From: a virus
Virus record (IMG/VR): IMGVR_UViG_3300047564_003675
Location: 1 to 43,926 of that record
DNA: 43,926 bases
Direction: 5' to 3' (one strand)
Positions 7,342 through 37,792 of the stretch are shown here, piece after piece. The notes beneath the pieces are model-generated. The model had not been told where the DNA came from. It saw only the letters and a list, made by a program, of their open reading frames with translations, and searched no databases. The stretch's first letter is position 1. Each line of letters opens with the position of its first letter. The position numbers were made by a program, and so were the translations under genes.

Positions 7342-8093
7342 TGTCTGGATGCGGCTGCAACGTTGATTCTCTTCCGACGTGCTATCAGGTACTTCCTGTT
7401 CCTGATCCCGTCATCAGCCCCTCTGTATCCTCATTCTTTGGGTCATTGACCCTATCCATCACCTGTAGTGTCGCTCCAGCGAAGATCTACTACACCCTTG
7501 ATGGATCGACTCCGACAGTTCTCTCAGCCCTCTACACCGGGCCATTTGTCATAACAGAGACGACCACTGTAAAGGCCATAGCCCTCCTTCAGAACTACGC
7601 TCCATCGAATGTCGTAAAGAAGGTCTACACTTCGATAGTCCCAACGAATCGGGCCTATTGGGGATGGTCTCCTGAGACGATGCTGACAGGGCCAGGAGTC
7701 AATGCCCTTCAGAACAGCGAGGTCAAGTCTGACACCTATGGGGTCTATCCATTTCAGGCCAACTCAACGGTAAACGACTACTTCTACTTCTGGTTTCCGG
7801 ATTACTTTGGTCCGCCACGTTCCACTGATGGATTTAGAGATACAGTCACCGTTCAGCCGATTGTGATGGCTGGGCTGATCCAAGGCTTTACCACGGGCCA
7901 GGTCAATGGATGGCTGTATAAGAGCGTCAACGTCAACGGAATCCCAGGTAAGCTCTTTAGGTCCTATTATCAACTCGGTGGTGGCGGTCTCTTTGACATC
8001 GAGGTTCTATCTCCTTCCGTCACCTACTATCGAGCGGACACCACTGCGCTGACCGCTGATACGACAACCTTCACAGCAGATTTCGCTTACTAG
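7341..8093 (+). CDS. Virion protein with chitobiase/hexosaminidase C-terminal type domain
   Basis: 250 residues; the start overlaps the previous stop by one base (TAATG). Residues ~30-88 match the beta domain found at the C-terminus of chitobiases and in many surface proteins (PF13290-like): KIYYTLDGSTPT...LYTGPFVITETTTVKAIA. The rest is beta-rich with aromatic residues and a long C-terminal Thr/Asp repeat (TALTADTTTFTAD). Likely a receptor- or glycan-facing tail decoration. No catalytic domain is present. The same type of domain recurs in the exported protein at 27978-28478. Confidence 0.7.
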   Translation: MSGCGCNVDSLPTCYQVLPVPDPVISPSVSSFFGSLTLSITCSVAPAKIYYTLDGSTPTVLSALYTGPFVITETTTVKAIALLQNYAPSNVVKKVYTSIVPTNRAYWGWSPETMLTGPGVNALQNSEVKSDTYGVYPFQANSTVNDYFYFWFPDYFGPPRSTDGFRDTVTVQPIVMAGLIQGFTTGQVNGWLYKSVNVNGIPGKLFRSYYQLGGGGLFDIEVLSPSVTYYRADTTALTADTTTFTADFAY

Positions 8094-8095
8094 CC

Positions 8096-9274
8096 ATGGC
8101 ACAACAGACGATCAACATCGGCAGTGCTCCAAATGATGGGGCCGGAGATCCACTGAGGACAGCGTTCCAGAAGTGCAATGACAACTTCACCGAGCTGTAC
8201 AGCGCACCTTCTGGAGGCACTGGAACCGTGACCAGCGTGGGTGTGGTCAATGCCAATGGTGTCAGTGCCACCATAACCAATCCGACCACGACCCCATCGA
8301 TGACGTTCTCTCTTGGGAACATCATCCCGGCGACGGTAAATGGCATCGTCCTTAGCGGATCCTCCAACCCGGCTCTGGCTGTAGCCGGAACATCCTCAAT
8401 CAGTGGAAGCCATAGCGGGACCTCCAGCGGCACCAACACTGGAGACATTGTGTTGGCTGGTGCTCCAGATTACATCACGATCTCTGGTCAAACGATCACC
8501 CGAGGTCTGGTCGATCTTTCCACCGACATCACCGGCAATCTCTCGTATAGCCGGCTGAACAACCTTCAGTCCAACCGCATCCTTGGACGTGTCAGCGGAG
8601 GCACCGGTGAGGTTGAGCCACTGACGATGACCAATGTGCTGGACATCGTGAATTCAGCGCAGGGAGTCGTTCTCTATCGTGGGGCTGTAACCTGGGCTGG
8701 ACTGCTTCCTGGAACCTCTGGCTACTTCCTCAAGACTCAAGGAGCTGGAGCCAATCCGACCTGGGCCAAGGTGGATGCATCTCCAAAGAATCTCTGGATT
8801 CCAGCTGGCACATTCAAGAGTCGGATCACAGGCGGATGCAGTGCTGGAACGTCTGAGTCATCGACCCACAAGGTAAACCTGTACGAACTCCTGTTTGATC
8901 AATCCACAGACCAGTTTGCCCAAGCGACTGTGGTGATGCCTTCAAACTGGGATGGAGGAACGATCACAGCCAAGTTCTACTGGACCGCGGCAAGTGGAAC
9001 GGGAGACGTGGTGTGGGTCATTCAAGGCAGGGCGTTTGCTGACGGGAATGCCATTGATCAGGCATTCGGAGCACAGCAAACCGTCACTGATACATTGACC
9101 GTAAACAATCAGGTTCAGATCTCCAGCGCCACATCCGCCATCACACTGGCAGGAACGCCATCGGCTGGAAATCTTGTGGTGTTTCAGATGTGGAGAAACG
9201 GAGATGATGCTGGCGATACCCTCAATGGATCCGCCTACCTCATCGGCGTAGACATCACCTACACGGCTTCATGA
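8096..9274 (+). CDS. Tail fibre-like structural protein
   Basis: 392 residues. The first ~36 residues (INIGSAPNDGAGDPLRTAF...NDNFTELY) are a module seen at the N-terminus of many phage fibre and baseplate proteins and probably attach the protein to the virion. Then come beta repeats with TGTVTSVGV and SGTSSGTNTGD motifs. The last ~160 residues form a beta sandwich (WIPAGTFKSR...TVVMPSNWDGG...KFYWTAASGTGDVVW...ITYTAS) that recurs widely at the C-terminus of virion proteins. It starts two bases after the previous stop, without an SD. Confidence 0.75.
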   Translation: MAQQTINIGSAPNDGAGDPLRTAFQKCNDNFTELYSAPSGGTGTVTSVGVVNANGVSATITNPTTTPSMTFSLGNIIPATVNGIVLSGSSNPALAVAGTSSISGSHSGTSSGTNTGDIVLAGAPDYITISGQTITRGLVDLSTDITGNLSYSRLNNLQSNRILGRVSGGTGEVEPLTMTNVLDIVNSAQGVVLYRGAVTWAGLLPGTSGYFLKTQGAGANPTWAKVDASPKNLWIPAGTFKSRITGGCSAGTSESSTHKVNLYELLFDQSTDQFAQATVVMPSNWDGGTITAKFYWTAASGTGDVVWVIQGRAFADGNAIDQAFGAQQTVTDTLTVNNQVQISSATSAITLAGTPSAGNLVVFQMWRNGDDAGDTLNGSAYLIGVDITYTAS

Positions 9275-32756: not shown

Positions 32757-33062
32757 TTAGGCGACTTCGAGCAGTTCGTCAATCCCTTTGACGTGCTTTT
32801 TCCTCAAAATCTCAACCAGCCTGGCCAGCTTTCTGTCGTAGGTGATTTGGTTGAGCACAGCAGTTCGCGCGTGGATTAGGGACGTGCGATCGCGACGGAA
32901 ATAGACTGCCACCTGTTGGATCGTGTTGAATGGCAGGGATTCTAGGACGATGACCATGGCCACCTGACGAGCAAGCGCCAGGGGTTGCCAACGCTGCCGG
33001 CCTAGAATCTGGGCCTCGGTGACACCGAAGACCTTGGCCACATCCTCAGTGATGGCTTTCAC
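32757..33062 (-). CDS. Stand-alone DnaA domain IV-like DNA-binding protein
   Basis: 101 residues from GTG 33062. This start overlaps the previous stop (GTGA) with GGAGG just upstream; a longer ATG frame to 33119 would overlap 61 bases. ARQVAM at 31-36 and FRRDRTSLIHA at 55-65 match the DnaA C-terminal domain signature (ARQ.AM..., F.RDHTSVIHA), which binds DnaA boxes. The AAA+ domain is absent. It could bind the phage or host origin, compete with DnaA, or regulate transcription. Second-strongest hint, after the clamp-binding peptide, that this phage uses host replication. Confidence 0.8.
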   Translation of the reverse strand: MKAITEDVAKVFGVTEAQILGRQRWQPLALARQVAMVIVLESLPFNTIQQVAVYFRRDRTSLIHARTAVLNQITYDRKLARLVEILRKKHVKGIDELLEVA

Positions 33063-33256
33063 TGGGCCTCCTGGAATCGCACGCGTAGGTTTGGGACCAT
33101 CTTCTGGTAGTACATCCACTCGTAGAACCAGACCGACTTGATGCGCGACAGGTTCTCGTCGTCGGCATACCTGGCAGCCTTCGCGAGGGCTTTGATGAAG
33201 GATCCACCCCTAGCCTCCATTTCGTCGAGGGTGGCGTTGTCTAATGCTGTTTTCAT
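33059..33256 (-). CDS. Hypothetical protein (65 aa)
   Basis: Helical and basic, starts MKTALDNATLDEMEARGGSF. GGAGG lies five bases before the ATG, and the ATG overlaps the previous stop (ATGA). Ends in the strand VPNLRVRFQEAQ. Unknown; cotranscribed with the DnaA-like gene. Confidence 0.6.
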   Translation of the reverse strand: MKTALDNATLDEMEARGGSFIKALAKAARYADDENLSRIKSVWFYEWMYYQKMVPNLRVRFQEAQ

Positions 33257-35364: not shown

Positions 35365-35552
35365 GGTGAGCTAGTGAACCGGAAACCCTCCGGAGGGATC
35401 GATCGGATGTCCCGTCGACGAGATGACGATTGCATGAGGATACGAGAGACGTCAACGGGAATTTTGCAGGTGAGAGGGAAAGGCCAGTGTTTACAGGGGT
35501 TTGACAACGCTTTTTTTCTTGCGGTTACGGCTGTGAACGAGACCGTTGACGA
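35365..35552. promoter_or_regulatory. Divergent control region with palindrome and -35-like box
   Basis: Separates the - strand GP88 run from the + strand small terminase. It holds a perfect 12-base palindrome CCCTCCGGAGGG (35386-35397), a possible operator, followed by ATCGATCGGAT. On + it has TTGACA (35501-35506), a perfect -35 box, but the expected -10 position reads GTTACG or TTACGG, so a promoter is only possible. No gene seen. Confidence 0.4.
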
Positions 35553-36194
35553 ATGCAAACGGAGGACATGGAACAGAGTGTTGACACGGCAGCGACGGAG
35601 GCAGAACCACAGAGAGAGCCCAAACAGGAGAGGCCAAAACAGGAGGGGAGGAGGGCAAAGGGGAGCGTAGACTGGGGAGCGATAAAGAAGAGGTGGAACA
35701 ACGGAGAGAGTGTTGGCGAAATCAGCCAAGCGACCGGAGTCAAGGAAGCCACCATCTACTCCCATGCAATGCGCTACCGGTGGCCAAAGCGACAGATGCT
35801 AGGTGGCGGTAGGAAGACAACGATAGAAGCGCCAGCATTAGTGGAGAAAGCCGTTGAGAAAGCAGTCGAAACAGGCGTTGCCACCCAGATGCCAGCATTG
35901 AATGCCGCCATAAGGGAGAAGCTTTCGGCTTGGTTTGAGAAGGTGCTAAAGACAACGGATAGGTTGCAAAGCCAAATCGATAGCTATGCAGACGGCAGGC
36001 TAGAGGTTGAAGAGATTAAAACTTTGTCCAGTAGCTTGGAAACCGTGGACCGCATCGCCCGTCGCACATTCGGCCTAGACTCGCCCGCCGGCTCGCCCGT
36101 CAGCGTGTTCTCCGTGCAGTCGCCCGCCATCAGCTGTCCGGTAATCGATGTCGAAACAATACCGGAAGCAACTCCGGCGAGCTCGCCACAATAG
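35553..36194 (+). CDS. Putative terminase small subunit (HTH)
   Basis: 213 residues. Charged N-terminus with a Glu/Gln/Lys run, then DWGAIKKRWNNGESVGEISQ-ATGVKEATIYSHAMRYRWPK (~40-79), the 'D-W..I...w..G.s...Ia...gv...tI...A...W' arrangement of small terminase HTH domains. The helical middle (~115-165) suits an oligomerising part, and the C-terminus is Pro/Ser rich. A transcription regulator is the alternative, since it is far from the large subunit (6 kb, same strand). Start could also be ATG 35568. Confidence 0.6.
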   Translation: MQTEDMEQSVDTAATEAEPQREPKQERPKQEGRRAKGSVDWGAIKKRWNNGESVGEISQATGVKEATIYSHAMRYRWPKRQMLGGGRKTTIEAPALVEKAVEKAVETGVATQMPALNAAIREKLSAWFEKVLKTTDRLQSQIDSYADGRLEVEEIKTLSSSLETVDRIARRTFGLDSPAGSPVSVFSVQSPAISCPVIDVETIPEATPASSPQ

Positions 36195-36360
36195 CTGTTG
36201 TATTGAATTCGTGACATTGTGACAAATAAACTGGGGGAGTGGGACCATTAATTTCTGCGCGGGCCGGCCTAAGAATTATTTTTTTGGGCGAGGCTGAGAA
36301 AGGCCGGCCGGGGCCCCTTTTCGCGGGGGTGGCTGTGACGGGTACACCTCTCAAAAATTT
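36195..36360. other. Non-coding segment with two GGCCGGCC and one GGGGCCCC palindrome
   Basis: No gene. GGCCGGCC at 36262-36269 and again at 36302-36309, GGGGCCCC at 36310-36317, T-run at 36279-36285, and AAAATTTT-like A/T run near 36350. Together they make a G+C block embedded in A/T runs. Function not known; candidate packaging or replication signal because it follows the small terminase gene. Confidence 0.35.
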
Positions 36361-36647
36361 TCCCCCCTTCAAAAAGCTCTCCCCTTGCAGCTGCTCCCGT
36401 CACCTACCCTTTGCAGCCATTCCTCTCAGCCTGCTCTCGTCATCTCCTCTTTGCGCCTCTCCTCCCAGCCTTCGCTTCTAGCCTGCTCCTTTAGCCTTGC
36501 CTCTTAGCCTCCTCCTCTCAGCCTCCTCCTAGCCTCCTCCTCTCTCCCTTCTCTCCTAGGTGCCTTTGCCTCCGTCTAGCTCCTGTCAATACTCTGATGC
36601 ATTGGCCCTTGACGCCTCCTCATCCTCTCCCCTAGCCTCTCCCCGAA
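36361..36647 (+). repeat. Polypyrimidine tract with AGCCTCCTCCT repeats
   Basis: Nearly 290 bases in which the + strand is overwhelmingly C and T, broken only by AG/G islands such as CAGCC, TAGCC, TTTGC. AGCCTCCTCCT occurs exactly at 36506-36516, 36520-36530 and 36531-36541, with many degenerate units (CTCCTC, AGCCTGCTC). No open frame of note. It forms the leader of the gene at 36648. The - strand carries repeated GGAGG. Candidate triplex-prone DNA, origin, pac site or decoy RNA; none proven. Confidence 0.7.
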
Positions 36648-36896
36648 ATGAATGCATTGACACCGCTCCTAGATAACTTCCTCGACAGCGTCTACCCTGA
36701 CCTCACCGCCGAAGCCCGTCACGCAGTGGAGCGTGCGTTCTACGTTGGGGCAGCTGCCTTGATCCAGGCTCAGCGAGATTCCATTGACGAGACCTCAGAG
36801 TTGAAATCGAAGGAGGCTCTGAACGATCTGATCCGGGAGGTGCAGCGCGCCATCACCCGCCTGTCCACTGACCTGGGCGACCCCTCTCTCAACTGA
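36648..36896 (+). CDS. Hypothetical protein (82 aa)
   Basis: Starts MNALTPLLDNFLDSVYPDLT; helical throughout. No domain recognised. No SD before the ATG, which follows a C/T-rich leader. Its stop overlaps the start of the GNAT gene (TGATG), so the pair is one unit closed by the terminator at 37265. Confidence 0.6.
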   Translation: MNALTPLLDNFLDSVYPDLTAEARHAVERAFYVGAAALIQAQRDSIDETSELKSKEALNDLIREVQRAITRLSTDLGDPSLN

Positions 36897-37362: not shown

Positions 37363-37743
37363 CTACCCCACGGCTGCACTGTCTGACGCTTGGATTGGAG
37401 CTTCTTGAGGCGCGTGATCTCGGCCTCGATCTGATCGAGTTTCTCGTTCATTGCGGGCGCCCTTCTTAGCAGATGGCAGAGCCTTCCCATAGACTTTTCT
37501 GAGGATACTGATCCGTTGACGGCTCAGCCCGTGGATCTTCGCCAGTTCCACGTTCTTCATGGACCAATCCCAGGTAGAGCGGTCCTTCCTCTGAGTTCCC
37601 CGCTTGCCGTTGGATTCAAGGCCTAGGGTCTTGCGTACCCGCCACACCGTTGAAGCACTCACACCTAGCTGTTTACCCAACGCCGTCGTCGTCAGATGTG
37701 GGCTTGCTTCAATGACTTGCTGATGATTTTTCAACGTACTCAC
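37363..37743 (-). CDS. HTH transcriptional regulator
   Basis: 126 residues with two helix-turn-helix segments: LTTTALGKQLGVSASTVWRV (~17-36) and WSMKNVELAKIHGLSRQRIS (~60-79). C-terminus basic and charged. It is transcribed away from the + strand gene at 37821; the 77-base gap contains the promoter at 37764-37792. It may therefore repress or switch that promoter and its own. It is the only - strand gene to the right of 35364. Confidence 0.75.
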   Translation of the reverse strand: MSTLKNHQQVIEASPHLTTTALGKQLGVSASTVWRVRKTLGLESNGKRGTQRKDRSTWDWSMKNVELAKIHGLSRQRISILRKVYGKALPSAKKGARNERETRSDRGRDHAPQEAPIQASDSAAVG

Positions 37744-37763: not shown

Positions 37764-37792
37764 TTGACAGCCTAGAGTCAAGTCAATAGCTT
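37764..37792 (+). promoter_or_regulatory. Sigma70-like promoter for the SSB-like operon
   Basis: TTGACA (37764-37769), 17-base spacer, TAGCTT (37787-37792). The spacer contains an imperfect repeat (AGTCAAGTCAA). The transcript would begin near 37799, giving a short leader with AAGGAG seven bases before the ATG at 37821. This is the only sigma70-type promoter I can support well. Confidence 0.6.

Follow-up and report, generated by a model that had tools for sequence, protein, structure and literature searches.

The pyrimidine-rich tract at 36361-36647 of the window (the whole stretch of 43,926 nt analysed here, IMG/VR record IMGVR_UViG_3300047564_003675) is, as judged by sequence comparison, modular, consisting of a box, a replaceable pyrimidine-rich array, a fixed segment and a promoter-like end. 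It is tentatively interpreted as a transcription insulator that would act after a putative small terminase gene by way of a Rho-dependent terminator, an interpretation held with somewhat less than even confidence. The tract would then be the non-coding spacer between the unit formed by the terminase gene and the box and the rightward gene block starting at 36648. The features are listed in Table 1.

Table 1. Features in and around the pyrimidine-rich tract
Feature	Position	Strand	Remarks
Putative small-terminase-like gene, 213 aa	35553..36194	+	Pfam Terminase_5, phrog_1206, predicted HTH
Terminase start region with inverted copy in the tract	35568..35610	+	Inverted repeat I1, 72% complementary
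Box downstream of the terminase-like gene (T-run, C4/G4 dyad, core GGGTACMCCTCTCAAAAATTTTCCCCCC)	36262..36372	+	87-94% identity in relatives
Pyrimidine-rich 13-bp tandem array, AGCCTNCTCCTCT, ~12 units	36389..36545	+	Proposed rut (Rho-loading) element in a transcript coming from that gene
Segment antisense to the terminase start	36556..36606	+	Conservation and predicted duplex
Promoter-like TTGACG-N18-TAGCCT	36609..36638	+	One of two such matches in the window
82-aa gene, first of the rightward block	36648..36896	+	ORF kept in all relatives

Genome context and relatives

The record is a podovirus-like phage genome. Portal-like and capsid-like genes, assigned by reading, are located at the left end. 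Going around the circle from 35.55 kb to 27.1 kb, all genes but a small HTH gene (37363-37743) are encoded on the plus strand, and a block of small minus-strand genes is found between 27.35 and 35.3 kb. The large terminase gene (42.2-43.9 kb, truncated by the end of the window; 597 aa in relative G001) was assigned from a Walker-A-like GSTGKS and its position, with three phage records annotated as terminase at 26-29% identity; it had no match in a Pfam search. Among 50,697 phage records no relatives were found for the DNA or for the small terminase protein, and only distant ones for the large terminase.

Comparisons were made with three relatives (G001, G002 and G003), IMG/VR contigs of 47.8-50.5 kb whose terminase protein is about 65% identical. 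Relative to one another, the four contigs are circularly permuted and their break points differ; G001 carries an exact end repeat of 127 bp. The ends of the window lie about 831 bp apart on the circle, and in the missing piece the large terminase gene ends and the portal-like gene starts. In G003 an insertion of about 0.8 kb (L004 about 7377-8191), located exactly between the 82-aa gene and an acetyltransferase gene, holds an apparent, putative DNA methyltransferase gene (by reading).

The gene before the tract had been called a small terminase in the sequence-only reading, and that identity is retained as weakly supported: Terminase_5 scores 22.8 bits, just above the cut-off of 20.3, phrog_1206 gives a weak match (E=4e-4), and an AlphaFold model of low confidence (pLDDT 62) places an HTH at residues 41-74, followed by long helices. 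A fold search with this model yielded no match, the low confidence of the model making the search uninformative. The likelier start of the gene is an internal ATG at 35568, which has an SD-like GGAGG in front of it. With 70% purines, the 5' end of the gene (35545-35831) exceeds every other stretch of the plus strand and is a compositional mirror of the tract. The 82-aa gene on the other side, which had neither a Pfam nor a PHROG match, is near-leaderless, its start codon lying about 10 nt past the promoter-like -10.

Composition and repeat structure of the tract

The extreme pyrimidine asymmetry and the non-coding nature of the tract, both pointed out before from the sequence, were borne out. 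The content of C+T is 77% in 36361-36647 and 78% in the optimum segment (36358-36644); no other 287-nt window of the record is as extreme (runner-up 62.7%). When the window was shuffled 100 times with a first-order Markov model, the 287-nt maximum averaged 60% and never exceeded 64.5%. No gene accounts for the tract: stops occur in every plus frame, indels separate the relatives, and searches gave no tRNA and no match to a known RNA family in Rfam. The "repeated AGCCTCCTCCT units" described earlier are present as repeats, but that description was incomplete, the units belonging to a decayed 13-bp array that a tandem repeat search and autocorrelation (strongest lags 39, 26 and 13) place at about 36389-36545, with the consensus AGCCTNCTCCTCT. 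AGCC occurs at 36415, 36428, 36467, 36480, 36493, 36506, 36520 and 36531, i.e., at spacings of 13, 39, 13, 13, 13, 14 and 11.

A host origin of the repeat was considered and rejected: weak matches were found in 5 of 113 Verrucomicrobiota-side genomes, and those read lay mostly in coding-looking pyrimidine-rich stretches. A short, intergenic-looking match (L249) is within chance. A separate match in Flavobacteriaceae (L246) lies inside a bacterial gene and is attributed to chance.

Conservation and the promoter-like end

The tract was found at the same place in all three relatives, where the earlier reading had proposed to look for it. The terminase gene is 47-56% identical at its four-fold degenerate sites; near 36260 identity rises abruptly, and the box reaches 87-94%. 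Within the tract, 36377-36500 is 97% identical in two relatives, whereas the genes immediately downstream show 61-82% at four-fold degenerate sites; the most conserved part is 36556-36606 (94%, 94% and 100% in the three relatives), and the promoter-like end shows 78-95%. In G003, 36385-36555 is swapped for a different pyrimidine-rich sequence and the 13-bp period is gone, while the flanking modules (box, 36556-36606 and promoter-like end) stay 94-100% identical. Because the array was exchanged for another pyrimidine-rich sequence between fixed flanks, composition rather than exact sequence seems, from these comparisons, to be retained in the tract. C/T swaps make up 29 of the 35 changes in the array of G001 and G002.

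The last part of the tract (36609-36647) forms the promoter-like end of the next, near-leaderless gene. A strict sigma-70 scan did not report 36609-36638; the form TTGACG-N18-TAGCCT has only two matches in the window, counting both strands, the other being at 37764, before the 37821 gene of the same block. A similar TTGACT-N17-TAGTCT precedes near-leaderless genes in a box-carrying family of uncultured viral contigs, the L008 family. The leaders of this family begin with CTCAAAAATTTT; a stretch of about 100 nt follows that is 63-79% pyrimidine, and then TTGAC-N17/18-TAGTCT with an ATG that is almost leaderless.

These leaders bear on a rather unlikely alternative, that the tract is a promoter-upstream region expanded by slippage, with little function beyond spacing and a bias stemming from an ancestral promoter leader. 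The pyrimidine-rich stretch before the promoter is shared with the L008-family leaders, and both the tandem array and its replacement in G003 fit repeat turnover; but in two relatives 124 bp are 97% identical, where four-fold sites of the downstream genes show 61-82%, which speaks for constraint unless the block was exchanged recently.

Rho-dependent termination

In the interpretation as a Rho-dependent terminator, RNA polymerase leaving the terminase gene would encounter no intrinsic terminator, and the RNA made from the tract would be C-rich, G-poor, unstructured and free of ribosomes, with a C-rich repeat every 13 nt. It is on these properties that loading and termination by Rho are proposed: Rho of the host, whose presence is assumed, would load on the tract RNA, end transcription and insulate the next block, which would start from its own promoter (36609-36638). 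The array itself may have arisen by tandem duplication of a shorter pyrimidine-rich region upstream of the promoter, of the kind seen in the L008 family.

Downstream of the terminase gene, no intrinsic terminator was found on the plus strand. A single stretch with C>G stands out on this strand, with 416 nt (36326-36741; the next longest has 167), and a matching stretch occurs in the relatives (G001, 409 nt; G002, 435 nt; G003, weaker, 236 nt). A published rut model describes 78 nt with C>G and a C every 11-13 nt (PMC6407284). The tract holds at least 78 nt with both properties, and its RNA is predicted to be unstructured: the best rut-like window of the plus strand (36478-36555) has C39/G7 and an MFE of -2.1, and the tract RNA folds less than shuffled sequences (z=+1.5; folding is equal or better in 189 of 200 shuffles). 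An equally C-rich window (C39/G7) is found on the minus strand at 35641, inside the purine-rich terminase 5' region, and the tract is therefore not distinguished by its composition alone.

In favor of termination by Rho, the array of G003 was replaced by a pyrimidine-rich stretch, as expected if composition matters, and pyrimidine-rich regions before a promoter recur in the L008 family. Against it, the pyrimidine stretch of the L008 family precedes a divergent promoter with no upstream transcript evident, which fits a role at the DNA level, and the 97% identity over 36377-36500 exceeds what composition alone would need. The likeness to rut sites thus consists in a C-rich, G-poor, unstructured RNA of more than 78 nt with a C spacing of 11-13 nt after a gene without an intrinsic terminator; the difference is that the element here is a 13-bp tandem DNA array within a pyrimidine-rich stretch of about 290 nt. 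Composition, repeat, conservation, inverted copy, promoter-like end and the distribution of the box are observed in the sequences; termination is inferred from them, as would be any terminase binding or antisense effect considered below.

Inverted copy of the terminase start

The sequence 36560-36602 is an inverted copy of 35568-35610. None of the other windows among 9,732 of the genome is predicted to form as stable a duplex with the terminase start (-62.9 kcal/mol; second-best place -49.5, mean -27.9, sd 5.7 kcal/mol), and the duplex is kept in all four genomes (-56.6 to -62.9). When scored by gapped local alignment against Markov shuffles, the similarity is clearer in G002 and G003 than in the window and G001, where it is only marginal. 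The block at 35540 is 88-95% identical among the relatives, compared with 42-65% for its neighbours.

A cis antisense switch could be built from these parts, in which the 3' segment (36556-36606), if made by read-through, would pair with the terminase start and block its translation, and Rho termination in the array would remove the segment. This is regarded as improbable. The complementarity is the strongest among the 9,732 windows and present in four genomes, and both partners exceed their surroundings in conservation, but at position 36590 two relatives have a C opposite an A in the gene, which breaks the pair. No compensatory changes between 36560-36602 and the terminase start were seen in the four genomes, so there is no sign that pairing is selected; an inverted duplication kept for another cause, e.g., a shared protein site, would look identical. 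An extended version would be a 3' element in which the Rho-loading 13-bp array would decide whether the transcript includes the antisense segment and so couple termination beside the packaging site to the synthesis of the small terminase; it is considered very doubtful.

Conserved box and packaging

The window and its three relatives each contain a single copy of the core of the box, CTCAAAAATTTTCC. The box is carried by 206 contigs with 128 distinct full contexts, which were found with patterns for parts of the box; a looser pattern matched at least 120 viral contigs, nearly all of which share GCGGGTGGGCTTCGTTTACGATACCCCCCTCAAAAATTTTCC, including the positions that the pattern had left free, the only unbiased ones. 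In the L008 family (e.g., L008 3289-3340, L032) a very strongly conserved box, GGCTTCGTTTACGATACCCCCCTCAAAAATTTTCC, is seen in more than 200 uncultured viral contigs. In L008 the box directly follows a small-terminase-like gene whose C-terminal part resembles that of the gene in the window; such a profile fits a packaging site. In part of the family the terminase-like gene is also preceded by another, divergent CTCAAAAATTTT element. One box contig is contained in an Akkermansiaceae MAG, a weak hint to the host phylum.

The sequence-only reading had considered an origin or packaging site at the tract plausible. What remains of this is a conserved candidate packaging element that adjoins the tract in the upstream box, whereas no terminus was seen and the origin is weak; the rare GGCCGGCC palindromes (36262 and 36302), which that reading had noted beside the tract and which were considered here as part of the site, are missing from all three relatives. 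From its sequence and conservation, 36262-36372 is the best candidate for a packaging (cos-like) site, better than the tract. The ends of 156 full-length contigs of the box-carrying family do not pile up next to the box, so the packaging site stays a candidate. In the L008 family, the 100-nt bin lying 800-900 nt past the box on its downstream side holds the ends of 14 of the 156 full contigs, more than the neighbouring bins do, and these ends fall at differing positions.

Compared with cos regions of the lambda and HK97 kind, the likeness lies in a conserved non-coding element with a dyad and an A-tract beside a small-terminase-like gene, and in an HNH-like gene near the large terminase gene; the differences are that the candidate element lies here after, not before, the small terminase gene, and that the pyrimidine array is not shared by all phages that have the box. 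In the fetched stretches of the cos phages DT1, Sfi19, A2 and phiSLT no box motif was found, and the ends of HK97 gave no clear match to it. In Streptococcus phage Javan207, TTACATCCCCCCCTCAAAAATTTTC in the long intergenic region before HNH-TerS-TerL resembles the core of the box, but this is a single short match (BLAST E about 2) without a pyrimidine array.

In lambda, the R sites of cosB lie beside cosN. By analogy, the tract might be part of the packaging site, the 13-bp units serving as a binding array for the small terminase beside cleavage in the box (36262-36372), which is rated as rather unlikely. The tract adjoins the terminase-like gene and a single-copy conserved box common to more than 200 contigs, 36377-36500 is 97% conserved in two relatives, and recognition of an A-tract by a small terminase has a precedent in HK97 (PMC11331095). 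Yet the array is not found wherever gene and box are: G003 keeps both, with the array replaced and the 13-bp period gone, and the L008 family has the box without an array on that side. In addition, 13 bp is out of phase with the helix, and no terminus was seen, either in the permuted contigs or in the count of 156 contig ends.

Origin and triplex formation

Origin unwinding regions have direct 13-mers and strand asymmetry, and both features of the tract recall them. A role as replication origin or triplex-forming element is nevertheless judged highly improbable. The gene at 32757-33119 (minus strand, 120 aa) encodes a DnaA domain-IV-like protein that matches only the DNA-binding domain IV of DnaA (Bac_DnaA_C, E=2.7e-12), and the strand composition switches locally from purine to pyrimidine around 36 kb; but DnaA boxes form no cluster anywhere in the window (one match, 1.9 expected), and the array is absent from G003. 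The earlier suggestion of triplex DNA was not upheld. The tract shares a strong purine/pyrimidine strand asymmetry with the homopyrimidine mirror repeats of H-DNA, but it is interrupted by a purine about every 13 bp and has no long mirror symmetry, the longest pure pyrimidine run, which is also that of the record, being 25 nt (at 36533) and the mirror arms at most 8 nt.

Implications

For a large group of uncultured phages, the very strongly conserved box behind a small-terminase-like gene offers a concrete candidate packaging site that would be easy to test. As to the tract, descriptions of factor-dependent termination signals in phages of uncultured bacteria are, to our knowledge, few, and few such signals have an obvious repeat design; if the reading as a Rho-dependent terminator is true, a rut element built as a tandem array would allow the spacing rule for Rho loading to be tested cleanly in a natural system.
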